DNA from: an uncultured Gemmatimonadales bacterium
Lineage (GTDB): Bacteria; Gemmatimonadota; Gemmatimonadetes; JACCXV01; JAHWKZ01
Direction of reading: 5' to 3'
NCBI GenBank assembly: GCA_947259315.1
Contig: CAMYLR010000004.1
Coordinates: 45,406 to 109,405, forward strand
Length of the DNA stretch: 64,000 bases
A program made the position numbers and the translations under genes. The notes below the pieces were generated by a model. The model saw only the letters and a list, made by a program, of their open reading frames with translations. It was not told where the DNA came from and ran no database searches. Below are positions 15,482-61,078 of the stretch, one piece after another; position 1 is the stretch's first letter, and every line of letters starts with the position of its first letter.

Positions 15482-16204
15482 ATGCCTGCTAAGAAGAAAA
15501 CGAGACGTAAGACAGCGGGGAAGAAGAAGGCCGCTCGCAAGAAAAAGGCGACCAAGAAGAAGAAGGCCGCTCGCAAGAAAAAGGCGACCAAGAAGAAGAA
15601 GGCCGCTCGCAAGAAAAAAGCGACCAAGAAGAAGAAGGCCACTCGCAAGAAAAAGGCGGCCAAGAAGAAGAAGGCCACTCGCAAGAAAAAGGCGACCAAG
15701 AAGAAGAAGGCCACTCGCAAGAAAAAGGCGGCCAAGAAGAAGAAGGCCGCCCGCAAGAAAAAGGCGACCAAGAAGAAGGCCACTCGCAAGAAAAAGGCGA
15801 CCAAGAAGAAGAAGGCCACTCGCAAGAAGAAAGCGACCAAAAAGAAGGCCAAGAAAAGCGGGGCCCGAGCGTACCGAAGCCAAGCGTTCTTCGATCACTT
15901 TCGAGAGAAACTGCTCGAGAAGCGGGGCCGAATCGAGCGCCGTCTGCACGATTTCCGCGACCAGCTACGGGGCATTCAGGAGCGACCGCGGGAACTGGAG
16001 GAGTGGGCGCAGGAGGAGAAGGACCGCGATATCTTGATTCGGCTGGAACAGCGCGAGCAGGAGGAGTTGCGCCGGATCCAGACCGCTCTGATGCTCGTTA
16101 ACTCGCGACAGTATGGAAAGTGTCAGGTGTGCGGGCGACCGATTCTCCGCGCCCGTCTCGAAGAGATCCCCACCGCCTTTCGTTGCATAAGGCATTCCGG
16201 CTAA
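15482..16204 (+). CDS. DksA/TraR-type zinc-finger protein with a histone-H1-like Lys/Ala-rich N-terminal tail
   Basis: A 240-residue protein in two parts. Residues 1-125 are almost only Lys, Ala, Arg and Thr, built from hexapeptides such as ATKKKK and AARKKK encoded by 36-bp tandem repeats, like bacterial histone-H1/HC1 tails that bind DNA. Residues 130-240 form a coiled-coil and zinc-finger module: CQVC, 17 residues, then CIRH (C-x2-C-x17-C-x2-H), the DksA/TraR spacing with His replacing the last Cys. DksA proteins bind the RNA polymerase secondary channel; the tail may tether this one to DNA or polyphosphate (inference). It has its own promoter and a good ribosome-binding site. Confidence 0.85.
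   Translation: MPAKKKTRRKTAGKKKAARKKKATKKKKAARKKKATKKKKAARKKKATKKKKATRKKKAAKKKKATRKKKATKKKKATRKKKAAKKKKAARKKKATKKKATRKKKATKKKKATRKKKATKKKAKKSGARAYRSQAFFDHFREKLLEKRGRIERRLHDFRDQLRGIQERPRELEEWAQEEKDRDILIRLEQREQEELRRIQTALMLVNSRQYGKCQVCGRPILRARLEEIPTAFRCIRHSG
15530..15850 (+). repeat. 36-bp coding tandem repeats of the Lys/Ala tail
   Basis: About nine near-identical 36-bp units of the pattern gcc-gct-cgc-aag-aaa-aag-gcg-acc followed by aag codons, with Ala/Thr swaps (gct to act, acc to gcc) and two units shortened by one codon. Unit starts at 15530 and 15566 confirm the period. The array stays in frame throughout and is prone to expansion or contraction. Confidence 0.9.
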
Positions 16205-51153: not shown

Positions 51154-51810
51154 ATGGTGACCACTACACTCGCGCCGCGTGTTCTCGCGGTCCGGAAAAT
51201 CCCGAACATCGCGCCGTCGCTGGTCGATGCGCTGGGGTTGCGGCCCTCACACGCCGCGATCGGGTTCCTCACCGTAGATCAGGACGATCCCACATATGTG
51301 GCGGTCGACGACGCGACCAAGAAGGCCGAAGTCGACGTCGTCTTCACGCGCACCTTCTACCGCGATTCAGCGCGCTCGATCTTGGGGTCACCCGCCGCCG
51401 AGACCTTGGTAATAATCGCTGGAGATCGCCTCGGGGAAGTCGAAGCCGGAATGGATGCTACGCTGACTTACCTCGAGTCGCGTATCAGCTATCGTTCGGC
51501 TGACGACGAAGGGCGTTCTCCATACCTGGCGCACCTCGTCGCTCAGACCGGCAGTTATCTGTCGGAGCGAGCCGGAATCGAACGCGGCCAGGCGCTGGGG
51601 TACCTAAAGGCGACGCCGCTTGAGGCGGTCTTCGGGCTTGACCAGGCGCTCAAAGCCGCCGACGTACAGGTGGGGGAGTGGATCGAGCCGCCGACACCGA
51701 CCAACATGGGCGGTGCCCTGGTGACCGGCACCGAGGCCGACTGCCGCGCAGCGTGCGAGGCCTTTGAAGCCGCCGTCAAGTCCGTCTGCGCCGACCCGGT
51801 ACGGTACTGA
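51154..51810 (+). CDS. BMC-T shell protein, EutL-like
   Basis: A 218-residue tandem-BMC shell protein forming pseudohexameric trimers. It matches EutL along its length: RVLAVRKIPNIAPSLVDALGL, GFLTVDQDDPTYVAVDDATKKA, FTRTFYRDSARS, LVAQTGSYLSERAGI, PLEAVFGLDQALKAADV and PPTPTNMGGALVTG. EutL pores are gated in crystal structures and are thought to pass larger cofactors. First gene of the operon; the BMC-H gene starts 2 bases after its stop. Only EutL-type trimers are seen here; no PduB- or CcmO-like protein is present. Confidence 0.92.
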   Translation: MVTTTLAPRVLAVRKIPNIAPSLVDALGLRPSHAAIGFLTVDQDDPTYVAVDDATKKAEVDVVFTRTFYRDSARSILGSPAAETLVIIAGDRLGEVEAGMDATLTYLESRISYRSADDEGRSPYLAHLVAQTGSYLSERAGIERGQALGYLKATPLEAVFGLDQALKAADVQVGEWIEPPTPTNMGGALVTGTEADCRAACEAFEAAVKSVCADPVRY

Positions 51811-51812
51811 AG

Positions 51813-52409
51813 ATGGCTGGAAACGCCCTCGGCCTGATCGAGACCCTCGGTTTTGTGGGCGCCACCGAGGCCACCGATGCGATGGCGAAGGCCGCCCCGG
51901 TCGAGTTTCTGAAGCGTGAGTATGCAAACGGTGGCCTGGTCACGATCCTCGTGCGTGGCGACGTGGCCGCGGTCAAGGCCGCGACCGATGCCGGTGCGGT
52001 GGCCGCCGCAAAGGTCGGTGAGCTCGTCGCCGTCCACGTCATACCGCGACCGCATCAAGGAACCGACCAACTGATCGACGTCCTGCCAGAGAACTACTCC
52101 TTATCGCCGTCCTATCCGATCGGGCAACGGTCCAAACCGAGTGCGGAACCGCCAACGCCTCCCAAACCGACTGTCGCTCCGACAACCGAAGTCACGACGA
52201 AGCCCGCCGCCCAACCGGTATCGGTTACCGACCTCCAAGCGCGATGCCTGACGGCGATACGGCGTGCTGGGGAGCAGGGCATATCGCTGCCTGAGCTCGG
52301 GACAGCGCTCGGGACGGAGTGGCGCAGACTGATCGGCCCAGTCAAGCAGCTGCTCGATCGTGGCACCATCGAAAAGGTCGAGAGCCGCTACTACCCGGCT
52401 AACGAGTGA
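51813..52409 (+). CDS. BMC-H shell protein with C-terminal winged-helix extension (EutK-like)
   Basis: A 198-residue protein in three parts. Residues 1-90 are a Pfam00936 BMC domain ([45 protein letters not shown]). A Pro/Thr-rich linker spans about 105-137. Residues 138-198 look like a winged helix-turn-helix (LTAIRRAGEQGISLPELGTAL, then IGPVKQLLDRGTIEKVESRYY). The domain order is that of E. coli EutK, whose C-terminal domain has a nucleic-acid-binding fold. It may display the extension inside the shell. The following ParA gene overlaps its stop. Confidence 0.88.
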   Translation: MAGNALGLIETLGFVGATEATDAMAKAAPVEFLKREYANGGLVTILVRGDVAAVKAATDAGAVAAAKVGELVAVHVIPRPHQGTDQLIDVLPENYSLSPSYPIGQRSKPSAEPPTPPKPTVAPTTEVTTKPAAQPVSVTDLQARCLTAIRRAGEQGISLPELGTALGTEWRRLIGPVKQLLDRGTIEKVESRYYPANE

Positions 52410-53221
52410 TGCGGCAACCGTACGCGCTCGTGTTTGCCAACGCGAAGGGCGGGGTAGGGAAGACCACGTCGGCGGTCCACGTCGCCGGCGCGTTCGCCGA
52501 AACCGGCATCGAGACGGTGCTCATTGACCTTGATCCTCAAGCTTCGGCAACCCGTCACCTAGGGGTCGATCCCGACGACCTGGAAGTCACCGTCACCGAT
52601 GTATTGATCGATCCGGCCGGAGGACTCGCGCGCGCAACGGTGCCGACGCGCTACGAGCGGCTGTTCTGCGTTCCGGCCCACGAGAGCCTGGGCCAGATGG
52701 AATCCGAGCTGGCCAACGTCCCGGGCCGCGAGGAGCTCCTGTCGGACGCCTGGGACGCCGGGCCGGAGCTACCGTACCGCATGGCGATCATCGATGTCCC
52801 GCCGGCGCTGTCGCTCTACACCGTGAACGCGTTGCGGCTGGCCGACACGGTCCTGATTCCGGTCCAGACGCACCCGTTCGCGCTCAATGCAGTACCCCGC
52901 ACCCTCGACCTCATCGACAAGGTTCGACGGCGACTCAACCCGCGGCTGGATCTCTTGGGTTACTTGGCCACGCTTTACGATCGCCGCACGCGCGTCGGTC
53001 GCGAATGCCTGGCGACGATGGAAGACACGTGGGGAGAGCTCCTGTTCCGAGAACCGATTCCGATCAACATCGCGCTCGCCGAAGCGGCCCGCGAAGGAAG
53101 GTTGCTGTTCGAGGTCGACGCCAACTCCACCGGTGCGGCCGCTTATTACAGTGTGGCCGCCGAGATCGCTGAACGATTGGCCGCCCGGCGTGATGAGGCG
53201 GTCGTGAAACAGGCGTCGTGA
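52406..53221 (+). CDS. ParA/MinD-family ATPase encoded within the microcompartment operon (McdA-like candidate)
   Basis: A 271-residue deviant Walker-A ATPase: FANAKGGVGKTTSAVH (signature Lys present), Walker A-prime DLDPQASATRHLG, and Walker B MAIIDVPPALS. No N-terminal helix-turn-helix, so it is of the short, cargo-positioning ParA/Soj type. GTG 52406 (or ATG 52409) overlaps the BMC-H stop and the next gene overlaps its end, so it is an integral operon member. By analogy with McdA, which spaces carboxysomes over the nucleoid, it may distribute this compartment; that role is inferred. Confidence 0.88.
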   Translation: MMRQPYALVFANAKGGVGKTTSAVHVAGAFAETGIETVLIDLDPQASATRHLGVDPDDLEVTVTDVLIDPAGGLARATVPTRYERLFCVPAHESLGQMESELANVPGREELLSDAWDAGPELPYRMAIIDVPPALSLYTVNALRLADTVLIPVQTHPFALNAVPRTLDLIDKVRRRLNPRLDLLGYLATLYDRRTRVGRECLATMEDTWGELLFREPIPINIALAEAAREGRLLFEVDANSTGAAAYYSVAAEIAERLAARRDEAVVKQAS

Positions 53222-53541
53222 CTGTGCGCGGACGCGGCAACCGGCCCATCGTCTCCGCCGATGACGTGCGCGCGGTGCACCGCGACGGGAGCTTTCAACT
53301 GCTCGTCCCCGAGCATGCGATCATCACACCGCTGGCCAGGGAAGAGGCTGACCGCTACGGAATCGAGCTCGTCAAGAGGGGCGACACCCCAAACCCGCCG
53401 GCCACTGATCGTCACATCCCAACCTGCGACCCGAGCGATGTGGAGCGGGTCGTCGAACGAGTCCGTGGTCTAGTGCCGGAAGCGGATGCGACGCAAGTAC
53501 GTCAGATCGTGGAGCGCGTCCTAACACGTTGGGGTCGGTGA
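53218..53541 (+). CDS. Small BMC-operon protein with EutQ-like N-terminus; possible ParA partner
   Basis: A 107-residue protein I cannot assign firmly. Residues about 8-50 ([32 protein letters not shown]) resemble the short N-terminal segment found in EutQ and some BMC-associated cobalamin enzymes. After a Pro-rich hinge, two amphipathic helices end the protein ([25 protein letters not shown]), resembling encapsulation peptides. A tryptophan lies three residues from the end; a near-C-terminal Trp is a reported hallmark of McdB, the partner of McdA. GTG overlaps the ParA stop; pta overlaps its end. Confidence 0.75.
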
Positions 53542-54551
53542 ACCCTTCACAACTGATCGCCGATTTGAGAAGCCGAGCGGCGGCCGAGAAACATCGTGTC
53601 GTGCTCGCCGATGGTGCGGACCCGCGGGCGGTGCAAGCTGCCCAGGTGATTCGCGAGCTTAACATCGCCGACGTCACACTGCTGGGTGGCGGTTACGCCA
53701 TCCGCGAGGCCGCTGAGAAGGCCGGCGTTGGCCTCGAGGGCGTCGAAGTCATCGCGCCGGCGCAATCGCCACGGCTCGATACCTATGCCGAAGGGTTTCG
53801 CGCCCTACAAGCGAGCCGCGACCGCGAGCTGAGCGTGGATGAAGCGCGGACGGCGCTCGAGGATCCGCTGGTGTTTGGCGCTTATCTCGTTCAGCGCGGT
53901 GAGGCCGATGGTTGCGTGGCGGGCAACCTGTCAACGACCGCCGAAACGGTTCGGGCCGCGATCCGCGTTATCGGGCCCGCGAGTGGGATCCGCACGGTCT
54001 CGTCGGTCTTCCTCCTTATCGGCGATCAGGGCGCGTTCACCTTTGGTGACTGCGGTGTCGTTCCTGAACCAACATCCAACCAGTTAGCCGACATCGCGAT
54101 CGCGTCGGCGGCAACCCACCGAGCCCTGGTCCGAGAGGAGCCCAAGGTCGCGCTGCTGTCGTTCTCAACCAAGGGGAGCGCCTCTCATCCCAAGGTCGAT
54201 CTGGTGGTTGAGGCGGTCGGAATCGCGCGTTCTCGCCGACCGGGACTCATCGTGGATGGGGAGCTGCAGGTCGATGCGGCCATCGTTTCTGAGGTGGCTC
54301 GCTCGAAGGCGCCCGACAGCCCCGTGGAGGGACGCGCCAACGTCCTCGTCTTTCCCGACTTGAATAGCGGCAACATCGGTTATAAACTGGCACAGCGATT
54401 GGCGGGCATGATTGCGCTCGGACCGTTGCTCCAAGGACTGGCGGCTCCGATGCACGATCTCTCACGAGGCGCTTCGGTCGACGATATCGTCAACGTCACC
54501 GCGATCGCCTGCCTGCAAGCGATTGAACGCGAGCCGTCCGGCCGTCGCTGA
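53538..54551 (+). CDS. Phosphate acyltransferase (phosphotransacetylase, EutD/Pta type)
   Basis: A 337-residue PTA_PTB-family enzyme interconverting acyl-CoA and acyl phosphate. Motifs: [79 protein letters not shown] and [18 protein letters not shown]. In metabolosomes this step recycles CoA from the aldehyde dehydrogenase product. It is the Pta/EutD fold rather than PduL. GTG 53538 overlaps the upstream stop; no N-terminal encapsulation helix is evident, as the conserved fold begins at once. Confidence 0.92.
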
Positions 54552-54630
54552 CAGACGACCGTTCAGGCGCGCCGCGCGCCGGCGCATCACGGGCTCACCC
54601 GAACGACTCCGTATTTGGAGGAGGAGCTGA

Positions 54631-54909
54631 ATGGTGGAAGCACTGGGGATGATCGAGACGCGCGGCTTGGTCGCTCTTATCGAGGCGTCGGATGCCATGG
54701 TCAAAGCGGCGCGTGTCAAACTCGTCGGCTACGAGAAGATCGGTGCCGGCTACGTGACCGCTTTGGTGCGTGGGGACGTGGCCGCTTGCCAGGCCGCTGT
54801 CGATGCCGGCGCGGCCGCCGCCAAGAAGGTCGGCGAGGTCGTCTCGGTACACGTCATCCCGCGGCCGCACTCGGACTTGGACGCGCATTTCCCAATTACG
54901 ACCAGCTAG
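54631..54909 (+). CDS. Canonical BMC-H hexamer shell protein
   Basis: A 92-residue single BMC domain of PduA/EutM type: [48 protein letters not shown] and [10 protein letters not shown]. Probably the main facet protein. An extended GGAGGAGG (from 54617) precedes the ATG, one of the strongest ribosome-binding sites in the window, consistent with high expression. The 79-base gap upstream contains a GC-rich inverted repeat (GGCGCGC/GCGCGCC near 54565-54582) that could act as a processing or attenuation hairpin and so set stoichiometry. Confidence 0.94.
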
Positions 54910-54953
54910 CAAAACAGCGGTCGTTAACAACTCCGATTTCTTAGGCGAGCATA

Positions 54954-56210
54954 GTGCCGCTCACCGAGAGCGAAATCCGTGCTATCGTAGATCGGATCAC
55001 CGGCGAGCTTGGAAGCGGCTCGACCCCGGCGGTCGAGGTCGCCGAACGCCAACCGGCGCCTTCAACGTTACCCAGCCCAACACCCACCAGTTCGTTGGGC
55101 ATCTTCGCTACCGTAGATGAAGCTGTCGAAGCGGCGCATCGCGCACAGGCCGAGATCCGCACGCTCGAGCTGCGTGACAAGATCATCGCCAACCAACGCC
55201 GCCGGCTGACCGAGCAGGCCCGATCGCTAGCCGAGCAAGCGGTCACCGAGACCGGGCTCGGAAACGTCGAGAGCAAGGTCCTCAAGAACCAGCTTGTGAT
55301 CGATCGCACCCCGGGCACCGAGGACCTGTCACCCGAGATACTGTCAGGTGACCACGGTCTGACGCTGACCGAGCTGGCGCCATGGGGCGTCATCGGCGCG
55401 GTCACGCCGTCGACCAATCCGGCGGCCACGATCATCAACAACGGGATCTCGATGATCGCCGCCGGAAACGGTGTCGTGTTTGGTGCCCACCCCCAAGCCA
55501 AAGGCGTCACCAACCGGACGATCCACCTGATGAACGCAGCGGCAGTCGAGGTGGGGGGGCCAAAGACCCTCCTCACAGCGGTCGCCGAGCCGTCGATCGA
55601 AGCCGCACAAAAACTCTTTCACCACCGTGGGATCGACCTGCTGGTCGTCACCGGCGGGGGAGCCGTCGTTCGGGCGGCCCAGAAGTCGACCAAGCGAGTC
55701 ATTGCGGCCGGGCCCGGCAATCCACCGGTGGTCGTCGACGCGAGCGCCGATCTTGCTCGCGCCGCAGCCGACATCGTGGCCGGCGCATCGTTCGACAACA
55801 ACGTCGTCTGCACGTGTGAAAAGGAGATTCTGGCCGAGGCGCCGATCGCCGACGAGCTACTCGAGGAGCTACAACAGAACGAAGCTGTGCTGCTGACACC
55901 GGACGAAGCCGAAGCTCTGGCGCGAGCGATGTTAAACGATTACCCCGGCCCCGAGCCGCGGATGAACAAGGAGTACGTCGGCAAGGACCCCGCGGTCTTG
56001 GCGGAGTTGATCGACAAGCGGGTCCCAGCAGGGACCAAGCTGCTGTTAGCCGAGACCGATCGTCATCACCCGTTCGCCGTGCTGGAGCTGCTGACCCCTG
56101 TTTTGCCGCTCATCCGCTGTCCCGACGTCGATACGGCTATCGACTGGGCGGTCGAGCTCGAGCACGGTTCAAGGTGCTCGATCACCTGCATCGCATGGCG
56201 GTCGAGATGA
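54954..56210 (+). CDS. CoA-acylating aldehyde dehydrogenase (PduP/EutE type), main part, truncated by deletion/frameshift
   Basis: Oxidises an aldehyde to acyl-CoA with NAD+ inside the compartment. Residues 1-20 (PLTESEIRAIVDRITGEL) form an amphipathic encapsulation-type helix, followed by a Pro-rich linker. Catalytic Cys286 lies in FDNNVVCTCEKE; WGVIGAVTPSTNPAATIINNGISMIAAGN is diagnostic. After AVELEHG the frame is lost and ends at 56210. Compared with PduP/EutE about 8 residues (the RHTA-x-MH segment) plus the frame are missing, a loss of about 25 bases near 56167. The remaining C-terminus is at 56174-56380. GTG start at 54954. Confidence 0.88.
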   Translation: MPLTESEIRAIVDRITGELGSGSTPAVEVAERQPAPSTLPSPTPTSSLGIFATVDEAVEAAHRAQAEIRTLELRDKIIANQRRRLTEQARSLAEQAVTETGLGNVESKVLKNQLVIDRTPGTEDLSPEILSGDHGLTLTELAPWGVIGAVTPSTNPAATIINNGISMIAAGNGVVFGAHPQAKGVTNRTIHLMNAAAVEVGGPKTLLTAVAEPSIEAAQKLFHHRGIDLLVVTGGGAVVRAAQKSTKRVIAAGPGNPPVVVDASADLARAAADIVAGASFDNNVVCTCEKEILAEAPIADELLEELQQNEAVLLTPDEAEALARAMLNDYPGPEPRMNKEYVGKDPAVLAELIDKRVPAGTKLLLAETDRHHPFAVLELLTPVLPLIRCPDVDTAIDWAVELEHGSRCSITCIAWRSR

Positions 56211-56392: not shown

Positions 56393-57832
56393 CTAGTAGG
56401 TCGGCATCGTCGGATCGATCTGCTCCGCCCACGCCGAGATACCGCCGGTCACGTTTCTTAGACGGGTAAAACCCGCCTTTTGAAGCCGCTCGATCGCCTC
56501 TGCGCTCCGCACACCCGACTTACAGTGTATGTAGTAGGTCCGGCTCGTATCGAGCTCGTGCATTCGCGCATCCAGCTCCGACAACGGTAGCAGCCTTCCT
56601 CCGTCGATGTGGCAGATTTGCCATTCGTGTGGTTCGCGCACGTCGAGTAGGGTCACGTCGTCACCGCGACTCAGGGCGGCGCTCAGCTCCCGGACGGTGA
56701 TTTCCTCAATGTTCGCACTAATGGGTCCAGCGTCCGTCCCGATCCCGCAGAACTCCTCGTAGTCGATCAGCTCTCGTACCGTCGCGTTCTCCCCGCAGAC
56801 TGGACACTCTGGATCCTTTTCGAGCCGCAGCGTCCGCATCGACATGTTGAGCGCATCGATCAGCAGCAGCCGACCCACGAGCGGTTCACCGATTCCGAGA
56901 ACGAGCTTGATCGTCTCGGTCGCCTGAATTGTGCCCAAGAGCCCCGGCAACACGCCGAGTACACCGCCCTCGGCGCACGACGGAACGAGGCCTGGCGGTG
57001 GCGGCTCCGGATACAGGCAGCGGTAGCACGGGCCACCGGGTGCGCCGAAGACCGATGCCTGACCGTCGAACCGAAAGATCGACGCATAGACGTTGGGCTT
57101 GCCCAACAAGACACACGCGTCATTAACGAGATACCGAGTGGGGAAGTTGTCCGTACCGTCCGCTACGATGTCGTAGTCCAACAGCAGCTCCAGAGCATTG
57201 ACGCTCATCAGCCGCGTCTCATGTGTCTCGATGACGATATGCGGATTGACGTCGCGTAATCGATCACGGGCCGATTCAAGCTTCGGACGGCCGACGTCGC
57301 GCGTGCCATGAAGGACCTGTCGCTGCAAGTTCGATTCGTCGACGACGTCAAAGTCGACGATCCCCAGACGACCGACACCCGCCGCTGCTAGATAGAGCGC
57401 CAGCGGCGATCCGAGCCCACCCGCACCCACCATCAAGACGCTCGCCGCCTTCAGCCTGCGTTGACCATCGAGCGTCACCTCGGGCATGATGAGGTGCCGA
57501 CTGTAGCGCCGGATCTCCTGGTTTGAGAACTGAATCGGCGGCGCTTCGACGAGACCGTCGATGCCACCGGCAACCGAGGGCACGATTGAAATCTCTTCAT
57601 CCGGACCGACGGCGGTATCCTCGTGCTCGCGGTAACGGATATCCTCCTCGCCCACGTAAACGTTGACGAAGTTGCGTAGCGCTCCGTCTTCACCGTACAA
57701 GTGCAATCGAAGGTCGGGATGTCTTCTGACCAGCGCGTCCAGCGCTTGGCCAACGGTTTCTCCCTCGACACGCAACCGGGCTTGATTGCCGGTGTAGGGT
57801 CGAAGCGGGGTGGGGACTAGCACCTCAGGCAT
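56393..57832 (-). CDS. Fused ubiquitin-like sulfur carrier / E1-like adenylyltransferase / rhodanese (CysO-MoeB type)
   Basis: 479 residues in three domains. Residues 1-90 are a MoaD/ThiS/CysO beta-grasp fold ending in Gly89-Gly90, followed directly by more protein. Residues about 103-345 are a MoeB/ThiF E1 domain: GAGGLGSPLALYLA, DFDVVDESNLQRQ, DGTDNFPTRYLVND, and zinc cysteines 269, 272, 343 and 346. Residues about 375-479 are a rhodanese with active-site Cys437 (HCKSGVRS). It should activate and thiolate a sulfur carrier. With the JAMM protease and CysM genes next to it, it fits the mycobacterial CysO route to cysteine. The Gly-Gly is internal, which is odd. Confidence 0.9.
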   Translation of the reverse strand: MPEVLVPTPLRPYTGNQARLRVEGETVGQALDALVRRHPDLRLHLYGEDGALRNFVNVYVGEEDIRYREHEDTAVGPDEEISIVPSVAGGIDGLVEAPPIQFSNQEIRRYSRHLIMPEVTLDGQRRLKAASVLMVGAGGLGSPLALYLAAAGVGRLGIVDFDVVDESNLQRQVLHGTRDVGRPKLESARDRLRDVNPHIVIETHETRLMSVNALELLLDYDIVADGTDNFPTRYLVNDACVLLGKPNVYASIFRFDGQASVFGAPGGPCYRCLYPEPPPPGLVPSCAEGGVLGVLPGLLGTIQATETIKLVLGIGEPLVGRLLLIDALNMSMRTLRLEKDPECPVCGENATVRELIDYEEFCGIGTDAGPISANIEEITVRELSAALSRGDDVTLLDVREPHEWQICHIDGGRLLPLSELDARMHELDTSRTYYIHCKSGVRSAEAIERLQKAGFTRLRNVTGGISAWAEQIDPTMPTY

Positions 57833-58296
57833 GTCGCTCCTTCCACGCGAGCCGGTGATCGTTTCGCGTTATGGTCCGAGATTTCTAGCTGGTTGAATGA
57901 CTGTCGATCGTGGGCCAAGACCCAGCCCTTCAAGTCACTGGCCGCACCATGATTCACCGAGACGATGATGTAAATCTGATTGGGCCAGGCGTGGTTCAGG
58001 TCGAACGTCGACGGTTGCGCTGAAACGTCTGGGTGCGAGTGGTATACGCCGACGATCTGCCCGCCCGCGTTGGCCGCCTCCCGCTCCGCCACCCGGTATT
58101 CCGCAGGATCGATCAGGTATCGACGATGGGCAGCGTCGGCCCGTTCGTTCGCCGCCGGGCGTCTTCTTTCTACGCAGGCTTTGTGTCTCTCGGAATCGAG
58201 CGTGCCCAGCAGAAACCCGCAAACCTCCATCGGGTAACCCGATTCCGCATGAGCCCTGATCTGTTGCAAAAGGTCGCTCTCGATTTGTACCTTCAT
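57817..58296 (-). CDS. JAMM/MPN+ metalloprotease, Mec-like
   Basis: A 159-residue zinc isopeptidase-fold protein with the complete JAMM motif: Glu24 (MEVCGFLLG), His86 and His88 in YHSHPD, then Ser96 and Asp99. In mycobacteria Mec+ cleaves the CysO-cysteine adduct to release cysteine. Here it overlaps the gene for the CysO-like fusion by 16 bases and follows cysM closely, so the same role is likely. It might also process the internal Gly-Gly of the fusion (inference). The C-terminus is short and basic. Confidence 0.9.
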   Translation of the reverse strand: MKVQIESDLLQQIRAHAESGYPMEVCGFLLGTLDSERHKACVERRRPAANERADAAHRRYLIDPAEYRVAEREAANAGGQIVGVYHSHPDVSAQPSTFDLNHAWPNQIYIIVSVNHGAASDLKGWVLAHDRQSFNQLEISDHNAKRSPARVEGATCLRC

Positions 58297-58302
58297 GACG
58301 CC

Positions 58303-59229
58303 TTACACCTCCCAAAACGGTGCGTTTGCATAGTTGCTGCCGTGATCGCACAGAACCGTCACAACGACCCCGTTTTGGAGGCTTTGGGCGAGCTCGAGCG
58401 CCGCATAGACATTGGCACCAGCAGAGCTCCCGACCAGCAGCCCCTCGGTGCGAGCCAGCCGACGCACCATAGCCTGCGCGTCTTCGGTCCGGACCGTTAG
58501 CACTTCGTCCGGCAACGTGGAGTCGTATATCCCTGGTTGAAACGCGGTCGCGAGGTGTTTCAGCCCCTCCAGCCCATGTAACGGGGAGTCAGGTTGGACC
58601 CCGAGGAGCTTCACATCGGGCCGTTGTTGACGAAGAAATCGACCAACCCCCATCAGTGTCCCGCTGGTCCCGATACCGGCCACAAAGTGCGTCACTCGTC
58701 CCTCGGATTGGCGCCAGATCTCAGGCCCCGTCGTCGCGTAATGAGCGCGCCAGTTTTCGGGGTTGTCATATTGGTTTGCGTACCAGTACCGGCGCGGGAA
58801 GGCAGCCGCCAGTCGCTGCGCCTCTCGGTACGCCCCGTCGTGGGATTCCTGCGGGTCGGTGAGGAACAACTCGGCTCCCAGCGCGCGGAGTGTCCTAAGT
58901 CGTTCGGCATTGGCATTGGCCGGCAGACAGAGCGCAACCTGATACCCGCGCCCAGCGCCGATCCACGCCAGGGCGATCCCGGTGTTTCCGCTCGTCGCGT
59001 CGAGAATCGATTTGTCGGGGGAGAGGGCGCCCTCTCGCTCCGCCTCAACGATCATGCGCAGCGCTGCGCGATCCTTGACCGAATGACCTGGATTCAGATG
59101 CTCGGCCTTGGCGTAGATTCGAGCCGGAGCGACCTCCGCCTCGAGCGATCGAAGACGCAGCAGCGGCGTGTTTCCCACGCAAGCGAGTTGGTCCACCGCC
59201 CGCGGGGGGTTCAGGGTCACGGTATTCAT
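58303..59229 (-). CDS. cysM: CysM-type cysteine synthase (PLP-dependent)
   Basis: A 308-residue fold-type II PLP enzyme. The Schiff-base Lys is in NPGHSVKDRAAL, the substrate loop is TSGNTGIALAW, and the phosphate-binding loop GIGTSGTLMGVGRFL. CysM paired with a CysO carrier uses O-phosphoserine and protein thiocarboxylate; context favours that over free sulfide. ATG 59229 (MNTVTLNPP) is chosen because the longer open frame runs through the promoter. First gene of the minus-strand cysM-mec-cysO/moeB operon. Confidence 0.92.
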   Translation of the reverse strand: MNTVTLNPPRAVDQLACVGNTPLLRLRSLEAEVAPARIYAKAEHLNPGHSVKDRAALRMIVEAEREGALSPDKSILDATSGNTGIALAWIGAGRGYQVALCLPANANAERLRTLRALGAELFLTDPQESHDGAYREAQRLAAAFPRRYWYANQYDNPENWRAHYATTGPEIWRQSEGRVTHFVAGIGTSGTLMGVGRFLRQQRPDVKLLGVQPDSPLHGLEGLKHLATAFQPGIYDSTLPDEVLTVRTEDAQAMVRRLARTEGLLVGSSAGANVYAALELAQSLQNGVVVTVLCDHGSNYANAPFWEV

Positions 59230-59266
59230 AGCTTCAGATCCCGCTCTCACGGGGCTCAAGGCGAAG

Positions 59267-59527: not shown

Positions 59528-59555
59528 AGTTTACATAAGATACGTTATGCGCCAT
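59528..59555 (-). other. dif: Chromosome dimer resolution site dif (XerC/XerD recombination site)
   Basis: A 28-bp site read on the minus strand: XerC arm ATGGCGCATAA (59545-59555), central CGTATC (59539-59544) and XerD arm TTATGTAAACT (59528-59538). The XerD arm is identical to that of Bacillus subtilis dif, and GCGCATAA matches the E. coli XerC arm. The arms give the dyad CATAA-N6-TTATG. It is intergenic and lies where coding strand switches from plus to minus, as expected at the terminus. Confidence 0.88.
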
Positions 59556-59591: not shown

Positions 59592-60296
59592 CTAGGAGCC
59601 GCCGGCCCCGTTGCCCCCGACCGCGAGCGGCTCTACGGACAGCTCAGCCGCCCGGCGCAGCGCACGGGCTGCGGTTTCGGTCCCAGGGACCAACTCCGCT
59701 ACGCGGCGGTACTCCTCGGCAGCAGACGCGTTGTCGCCCTGACTCTCATGCAAACGCGCCAGTTCCTCGCGCACACGGGCCCGTTCGCCATCAAAACCGG
59801 CGGTCTCGACCGCGCGCTCGTACGCCGCCTGGGCGTCACCGTAGCGGTTCAGTCGCGTGTAAGCCGCGGCGCTCAGAAGCCGCGCTGTCTGGGCAAAAGG
59901 CGAATCCTCGTGGCGGCTCAAAAACTCCTCGAACGCCTCCGCAGCGGCCTCGTTGTTCCCAGCCTGATAGAGCGCGTCGGCCCTGAAGAACCGGGCATCG
60001 TCACCAAACGATGTGTCGCCGTGTCGGCGCGCGAAATCTTCCAAATCGGCCGCCGCCAGCGGGAAGTTCCCGGCAAAGTACGCCTGCCGGGCCTCCAGGT
60101 AGGCGCCTGAAGCGTCCTCCTCGGCGCTTCGCGACATCGTCCGCAACACGAAAAAGGCCGCCAAAGCCAGCGCGAGCACCGCTGCCCCGGCCATAAACTG
60201 GCGCCTGTGGGTTTCTGCCCAGTGCGCCCAGTCGAACGTTTGTTCGACAAACCGATCTCGCTTTAACTCATGTTTTGCTAACCGTTTACGGCTCAT
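59592..60296 (-). CDS. Membrane-anchored tetratricopeptide-repeat protein (YfgM-like)
   Basis: A 234-residue protein: basic cytoplasmic N-terminus (MSRKRLAKHELKRDRFVE), one transmembrane helix (about 35-53, AGAAVLALALAAFFVL), then an extracytoplasmic TPR region (about 60-220; EARQAYFAGNFPLAAADLEDFARRH, ADALYQAGNNEAAAEAFEEF, AYTRLNRYGDAQAAYERA). The layout is that of YfgM-type periplasmic chaperone scaffolds. The start ATG is 35 bases downstream of the tRNA gene. Confidence 0.82.
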   Translation of the reverse strand: MSRKRLAKHELKRDRFVEQTFDWAHWAETHRRQFMAGAAVLALALAAFFVLRTMSRSAEEDASGAYLEARQAYFAGNFPLAAADLEDFARRHGDTSFGDDARFFRADALYQAGNNEAAAEAFEEFLSRHEDSPFAQTARLLSAAAYTRLNRYGDAQAAYERAVETAGFDGERARVREELARLHESQGDNASAAEEYRRVAELVPGTETAARALRRAAELSVEPLAVGGNGAGGS

Positions 60297-60330: not shown

Positions 60331-60407
60331 TGGAGCCCCCGGCGCGATTCGAACGCACGACCTGCGGTTTAGGAAACCGCTGCTCTATCCACCTGAGCTA
60401 CGGGGGC
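60331..60407 (-). tRNA. tRNA-Arg (anticodon CCU), CCA encoded
   Basis: Cloverleaf on the minus strand: acceptor GCCCCCG pairs with CGGGGGC, D-arm GCTC-AGGTGGATA-GAGC, anticodon stem GCGGT/ACCGC around loop TTCCTAA (anticodon CCT, reading AGG), and T-arm GTGCG-TTCGAAT-CGCGC region. The 3' CCA is genomically encoded (60331-60333). The discriminator base is U73, unusual because tRNA-Arg normally has A or G. Confidence 0.95.
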
Positions 60408-60423
60408 GTAAACGAGAAATAGC

Positions 60424-60453
60424 AATCTAATCGTCCGGCGTGCTGCCGGTAAA
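60424..60453 (-). promoter_or_regulatory. tRNA-Arg promoter
   Basis: On the minus strand TTTACC (60448-60453) and TAGATT (60424-60429) are 18 bases apart, placing the start near 60417, about 10 bases before the mature tRNA 5' end. It lies within the mobA upstream region. Confidence 0.5.
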
Positions 60454-60481
60454 GTCGCGACGCGAAGGATACCTTGCGTTG

Positions 60482-61078
60482 ATGATCGATGGACTGCTGG
60501 TACTCGCCGGTGGGCGCGGCCACCGGCTTGGCATGCCCAAAGCGTGGCTCGAATGGAACGGTCAACCGCTGCTGCTGCGGATCCTCGACCGATTGGCGTC
60601 GCTAGCTCCCGAGCCAACGATCGTCGTCGCTCAACCGGGGCAAGAACTTCCGAACGGCAAGTACCGGCGGGTGGACGATCTGATCGCCGATTCCGGCCCG
60701 CTAGCCGGCCTGGCGGCCGGTCTGGCCAAACACGCCAAAAACAAAACGGACGCCCACATAGCGGTCGTCGGCTGCGATTACCCCTTCGCTCACCCCAAAG
60801 TGTTCGAAGCTCTGGTCGAACTCGCTCCCGACGCCGCCGTGGTACTTCCCCGCTGGGGCGGTAGAACGCATCCATTGCACGCGGTCTGGAGCGCCGACTT
60901 GTGGGTCGAATGCGATCGGGCGGTCGCGGCCGGCAAGCTGGCCGTCCACACGTTGCTGAAATGCGTCCCTCACCGCGTCATCGACGCGGCCGAGATCGAT
61001 GCGCTAACCGATCCCGAACGAGTGCTCTTGAACCTCAATGATCGGGATGACTTGAAGCGGGCTCGGGCTTTGTCATAA
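60482..61078 (+). CDS. mobA: Molybdenum cofactor guanylyltransferase, MobA-like
   Basis: A 198-residue MobA-like NTP transferase that attaches GMP to molybdopterin. The N-terminal VLAGGRGHRLGMPKAWLEWNGQPLL is the nucleotide-binding signature; DSGPLAGLAAGLA and VVGCDYPFAHPKVFEAL carry the metal-binding Asp. ATG 60482 is preferred to a GTG 14 codons upstream, which would overlap the tRNA promoter region. Its 3' end overlaps the convergent unknown gene by 44 bases. The E1-like protein at 56393 is MoeB-like, but no other molybdopterin genes are present. Confidence 0.87.
   Translation: MIDGLLVLAGGRGHRLGMPKAWLEWNGQPLLLRILDRLASLAPEPTIVVAQPGQELPNGKYRRVDDLIADSGPLAGLAAGLAKHAKNKTDAHIAVVGCDYPFAHPKVFEALVELAPDAAVVLPRWGGRTHPLHAVWSADLWVECDRAVAAGKLAVHTLLKCVPHRVIDAAEIDALTDPERVLLNLNDRDDLKRARALS

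Follow-up and report, generated by a model that had tools for sequence, protein, structure and literature searches.

A 28-bp sequence in the analysed stretch of DNA (64,000 nucleotides; hereafter the window) is almost certainly the chromosomal dif site of the Gemmatimonadota bacterium from which the DNA derives. The 28-mer that a preliminary description had claimed is present at the positions listed in Table 1 (minus strand: ATGGCGCATAACGTATCTTATGTAAACT) and exhibits the dif architecture of two conserved 11-bp arms flanking a 6-bp spacer (11-6-11). The XerC/XerD core was matched once within the window, compared with 0.01 matches expected by chance, and, with up to 3 mismatches allowed, also once across the assembly (2,400,729 bases; 95.8% complete, ~4% possibly missing); the reversed-pattern control revealed no match across the assembly. 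On a weight matrix trained on 28 dif sites from relatives in the class, the site reached 32.2 bits, the runner-up position on the 210 kb contig -9.2 bits.

Table 1. Coordinates of dif and of the adjoining features in the window.
Feature	Position	Strand	Basis
dif site, 28 bp (ATGGCGCATAA CGTATC TTATGTAAACT)	59528..59555	-	read directly; unique; weight-matrix score; conserved arms
Predicted XerC-binding arm (ATGGCGCATAA)	59545..59555	-	alignment with known dif sites
Central region, 6 bp, strand-exchange spacer (CGTATC)	59539..59544	-	differs among relatives
Predicted XerD-binding arm (TTATGTAAACT)	59528..59538	-	read directly; sites of relatives
TPR protein gene, N-terminal hydrophobic segment (TPR_16, TPR_21)	59592..60296	-	Pfam; linkage
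tRNA-Arg (CCT), upstream of the TPR gene	60331..60407	-	

The single occurrence in the assembly is accompanied by conservation throughout the class, both of which the preliminary description had proposed to check: a dif match with no more than 2 mismatches was present in 204 of 217 genomes. Among the relatives the arms are constant and the spacer is variable; the flanking DNA aligns poorly even inside the family. In a set of 61 genomes, the real pattern matched in 51 and the reversed control in one. The reading of the 28-mer as an AT-rich inverted-repeat-like sequence (an operator or a terminator) that resembles dif by chance finds some support in the palindrome-like TTACATNATGTAA sites, partial matches to the pattern, which some relatives carry elsewhere; it is nevertheless scarcely credible in view of the expectation of 0.01 matches per window, the 41-bit gap to the runner-up site on the contig, the rarity of the reversed pattern (1/61 versus 51/61 genomes) and the concentration of conservation in both arms. 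Second dif-like copies in two relatives (G042 and G086) turned out to be contig-end overlaps or variants around a single dif, and most other additional dif-like matches among the relatives were weak pattern matches. A further genome (G056) contained a second dif-like site, TGGGCATAAGTTCTATTATGTAGAAC (C13:649186; L068), at a distance of 124 kb from its true dif, which could be the site of a Xer-exploiting element or a chance match.

The site resembles the dif-XerCD-FtsK system of E. coli and the Proteobacteria in its 11-6-11 arrangement, in the presence of GCGCATAA within the XerC arm (the E. coli-type XerC core) and of TTATGT within the XerD arm; the likeness extends to the two recombinases, the FtsK gamma domain, the KOPS-like polar octamers and the location at the terminus. 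It deviates from E. coli dif (spacer TGTATA, XerD-arm end TTAAAT) in its spacer CGTATC and its XerD-arm end TAAACT. The XerD arm is identical to that of B. subtilis dif (CodV/RipX), from which the site differs in having a Proteobacteria-type XerC arm. As a further similarity to B. subtilis, in which codV adjoins clpQ, xerC is located here next to an hslV-like gene.

The site is an ordinary example of a well-known element, and the element itself is not new, since dif had already been predicted in the phylum in 2011: Kono et al. (2011) surveyed 16 phyla and predicted dif in 641 organisms, among them the sole Gemmatimonadetes genome then available (1/1; PMC3025954). The site described there is of the same kind; the present analysis extends to 217 genomes of the class and establishes, in addition, the linkage to a TPR gene (see below), so that a large set of dif sites now exists for a phylum from which the earlier survey had a single genome.

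The genome encodes the expected partners: two tyrosine recombinases (PF00589) were detected, XerC and XerD, whose best models (TIGR02224 and TIGR02225, respectively) scored slightly below the NCBI equivalog cut-offs and which are both related to the solved structure of E. coli XerD (1a0p); the FtsK gamma domain (PF09397) was matched once (E = 3.8e-27). For binding, catalysis and translocation at dif we infer the following course by analogy with the established XerCD-dif-FtsK pathway of E. coli and B. subtilis: XerC would bind ATGGCGCATAA and XerD TTATGTAAACT; whenever crossovers, odd in number, had left the sister chromosomes fused as a dimer, FtsK, the translocase of the septum, would travel on polar G-rich octamers toward dif, its gamma domain would activate XerD, and XerD, followed by XerC, would exchange the strands over the CGTATC spacer and thereby release two monomers. 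By visual inspection, an apparent extra stretch, RRRVRHHDTSVGVEV, was seen in XerD (L012, 1453-2499, minus strand) in the hairpin preceding the catalytic lysine. Separately, chain 14 of PDB entry 9i5v (401 residues), labelled RaiA, matched XerC/XerD over ~290 residues; a fusion or a labelling question may lie behind this.

The set of recombinases also bears on a rival reading, in which an integrative element making use of XerCD (phage, IMEX or pdif module) left the 28-mer as its attachment site or as a relic. Xer-exploiting elements are generally known to possess dif-like sites, and such modules are reported from Acinetobacter (PMC12907356). Such an origin is very improbable here, because the genome contains one copy and no paired sites, XerC and XerD are the sole tyrosine recombinases found, the neighbouring genes have housekeeping character (ThiF/ThiS/rhodanese, JAB, PALP, TPR, MobA-like, phosphoribosyltransferase, M23) and most relatives keep dif at the same locus. 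Multiple copies associated with mobile elements, which the preliminary description had named as evidence against its own reading, did not appear (there was neither a second copy nor a mobile-element context), and no similar DNA was found among 50,697 phage and 72,556 plasmid records.

The position of dif relative to the replication terminus was assessed by GC skew (contig C4, which carries the window; the region around dnaA; samples of relatives), gene strands and polar octamers. The cumulative GC skew of contig C4 reached its maximum at 100,242, with dif at 104,946 (~4.5 kb apart), and the suggested peak near dif was thus found within ~5 kb of it. A single change-point fit placed the skew switch at 100.5 kb of the contig (99.5-102.0; approximately 55.1 kb of the window), i.e. 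3-5 kb from dif (104.9 kb), which is excluded by the interval; the switch matches that of the gene strands (~55-56 kb of the window), not dif. The genes are located mostly on the plus strand up to 56.2 kb and mostly on the minus strand from 56.4 to 63.2 kb; the preliminary description was therefore right in its outline of the coding strand, although a MobA-like gene on the plus strand (60440-61078) interrupts the minus stretch near dif. Its placing of the site in the only long intergenic region is less certain, as a crude ORF call yielded several gaps of comparable or larger size, some of which represent missed genes.

The octamer GGGNAGGG (E. coli KOPS) converges on dif from both sides, as had been anticipated: on the same contig, 9 plus- and 2 minus-strand copies occur to the left and 1 and 10, respectively, to the right (Fisher p = 0.002), and the polarity changes somewhere from 97.9 to 106.5 kb, a stretch within which dif lies. 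Over 34 oriented loci of the class (up to 20 kb each), the counts amounted to 88 plus and 14 minus before dif versus 10 plus and 95 minus after it (p = 2e-31), and the GC skew was higher before than after dif in 29 of these 34 neighbourhoods. Since GGGNGGGG is about as polar as GGGNAGGG around dif, the exact FtsK signal is not pinned to the latter and may be broader. On contig C9 (57-137 kb measured), the cumulative skew had its minimum at 97,869 inside the contig's own dnaA (97,309-98,649); with a skew maximum near dif and a minimum within dnaA, the genome thus holds both terminus and origin signatures. The source genome is a MAG of 33 contigs, and the opposition of origin and dif was measured in relatives only: in 12 single-contig relatives (3 of the 12 chromosome lengths being rounded values), dif and dnaA were separated by 0.42-0.50 of the chromosome in 9 (p = 6e-5) and by just 0.15-0.23 in the remaining 3.

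These data place dif in the terminus region, as had been claimed, and the site fixes the terminus in the source MAG; the accompanying statement that the forks meet here is only approximate, since the skew switches together with the gene strands rather than at dif. A refinement that is compatible with the identification of dif, and to which we assign an even chance, is that the forks on average meet at the skew and strand switch (55-56 kb of the window) and dif serves segregation only. It agrees with the change-point interval (99.5-102.0 kb), which leaves dif outside, and with the survey of Kono et al. (PMC3025954), in which dif correlated with the shift in GC skew but did not coincide with it exactly; the offset of 3-5 kb is well inside the range given there (0-1.39% of the genome, one sigma). 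The title of a further study, "Segregation but Not Replication of the Pseudomonas aeruginosa Chromosome Terminates at Dif" (PMC6199493), points in the same direction. On the other hand, the strand composition of genes is able to move an apparent skew change-point by kilobases, and the switch of the KOPS-like octamers (97.9-106.5 kb) spans dif. In sum, the evidence supports dif as the dimer-resolution point within the terminus region and not as a proven meeting point of the forks.

On its XerC-arm side, dif is located 36 bp from the end of the TPR gene, and this arrangement recurs almost throughout the class. Of 150 genomes of the phylum, 147 contained the ortholog of the TPR protein, each as a single match. 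In a comparison of 118 genomes of the class, the TPR gene and dif shared a contig in 114, in all cases on the same strand (114/114), with dif downstream of the gene across the class at a median distance of 131 bp (up to 700 bp in 102/114 and up to 3.1 kb in 112/114); owing to the shared ancestry of the genomes, these 114 linkages are not independent. On the XerD-arm side, what directly adjoins dif varies by family, and the order tRNA-Arg(CCT)-TPR-dif is repeated in three families (f1, f5 and f7). Four genomes from another class of the phylum contained the TPR gene with no recognisable dif alongside. The linkage also offers a practical route to divergent dif sites: a search downstream of the TPR gene yielded three of them in genomes that lacked a pattern match (G187, ACAGATAATATGTATTATGTAACGC; G191, ACTTATAATATGTATTATGTATTGT; G011, ACCTATAATAAGTATTATGTATTGT).

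The linkage of TPR gene and dif is a new observation; a literature search confined to open-licence papers returned nothing relevant on TPR genes beside dif. Its simplest reading is that gene order has been kept where the two replichores join. That it reflects a class-wide locus (TPR gene, dif and, in part, tRNA-Arg(CCT)) whose TPR protein may act together with dif at the septum is an unlikely proposition; if true, dimer resolution would gain a new accessory component, e.g. a factor that anchors the terminus or associates with Xer or FtsK. The linkage raises the question of whether a membrane protein linked to dif class-wide has a part in chromosome segregation.

Several deviating loci and neighbouring genes may be mentioned. 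In two genomes, the TPR gene and dif were on the same strand but widely separated (G158, C38: 69 kb; G052, C1: 10 kb), possibly as a result of insertions or rearrangements at the terminus. One single-contig relative (G039; 4.09 Mb) carried two TPR-dif-hldE copies on opposite strands (777 kb and 3732 kb) with ~75% identity in DNA (L064 around 9995, L065 around 9998); the local GC skew was terminus-like at one copy and reversed at the other, the FtsK count was 1, and the arrangement may reflect either a duplication of dif or a chimera in the assembly. Beside dif in the window, positions 56393-59235 encode a fused ThiS-ThiF-rhodanese protein, a JAB protease and a PALP (cysteine synthase-like) enzyme, a cluster resembling the CysO/Mec/CysM sulfur-carrier pathway of cysteine formation, except that carrier and activating enzyme are joined in a single protein. 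Genes for phosphate acetyltransferase and aldehyde dehydrogenase are located beside those for putative bacterial microcompartment shell proteins at 51154-56210, and the product of 15482-16204 combines, as judged by eye, a lysine-rich repeat (histone H1-like KKATRKKK units) with a DksA/TraR-like zinc-finger end.
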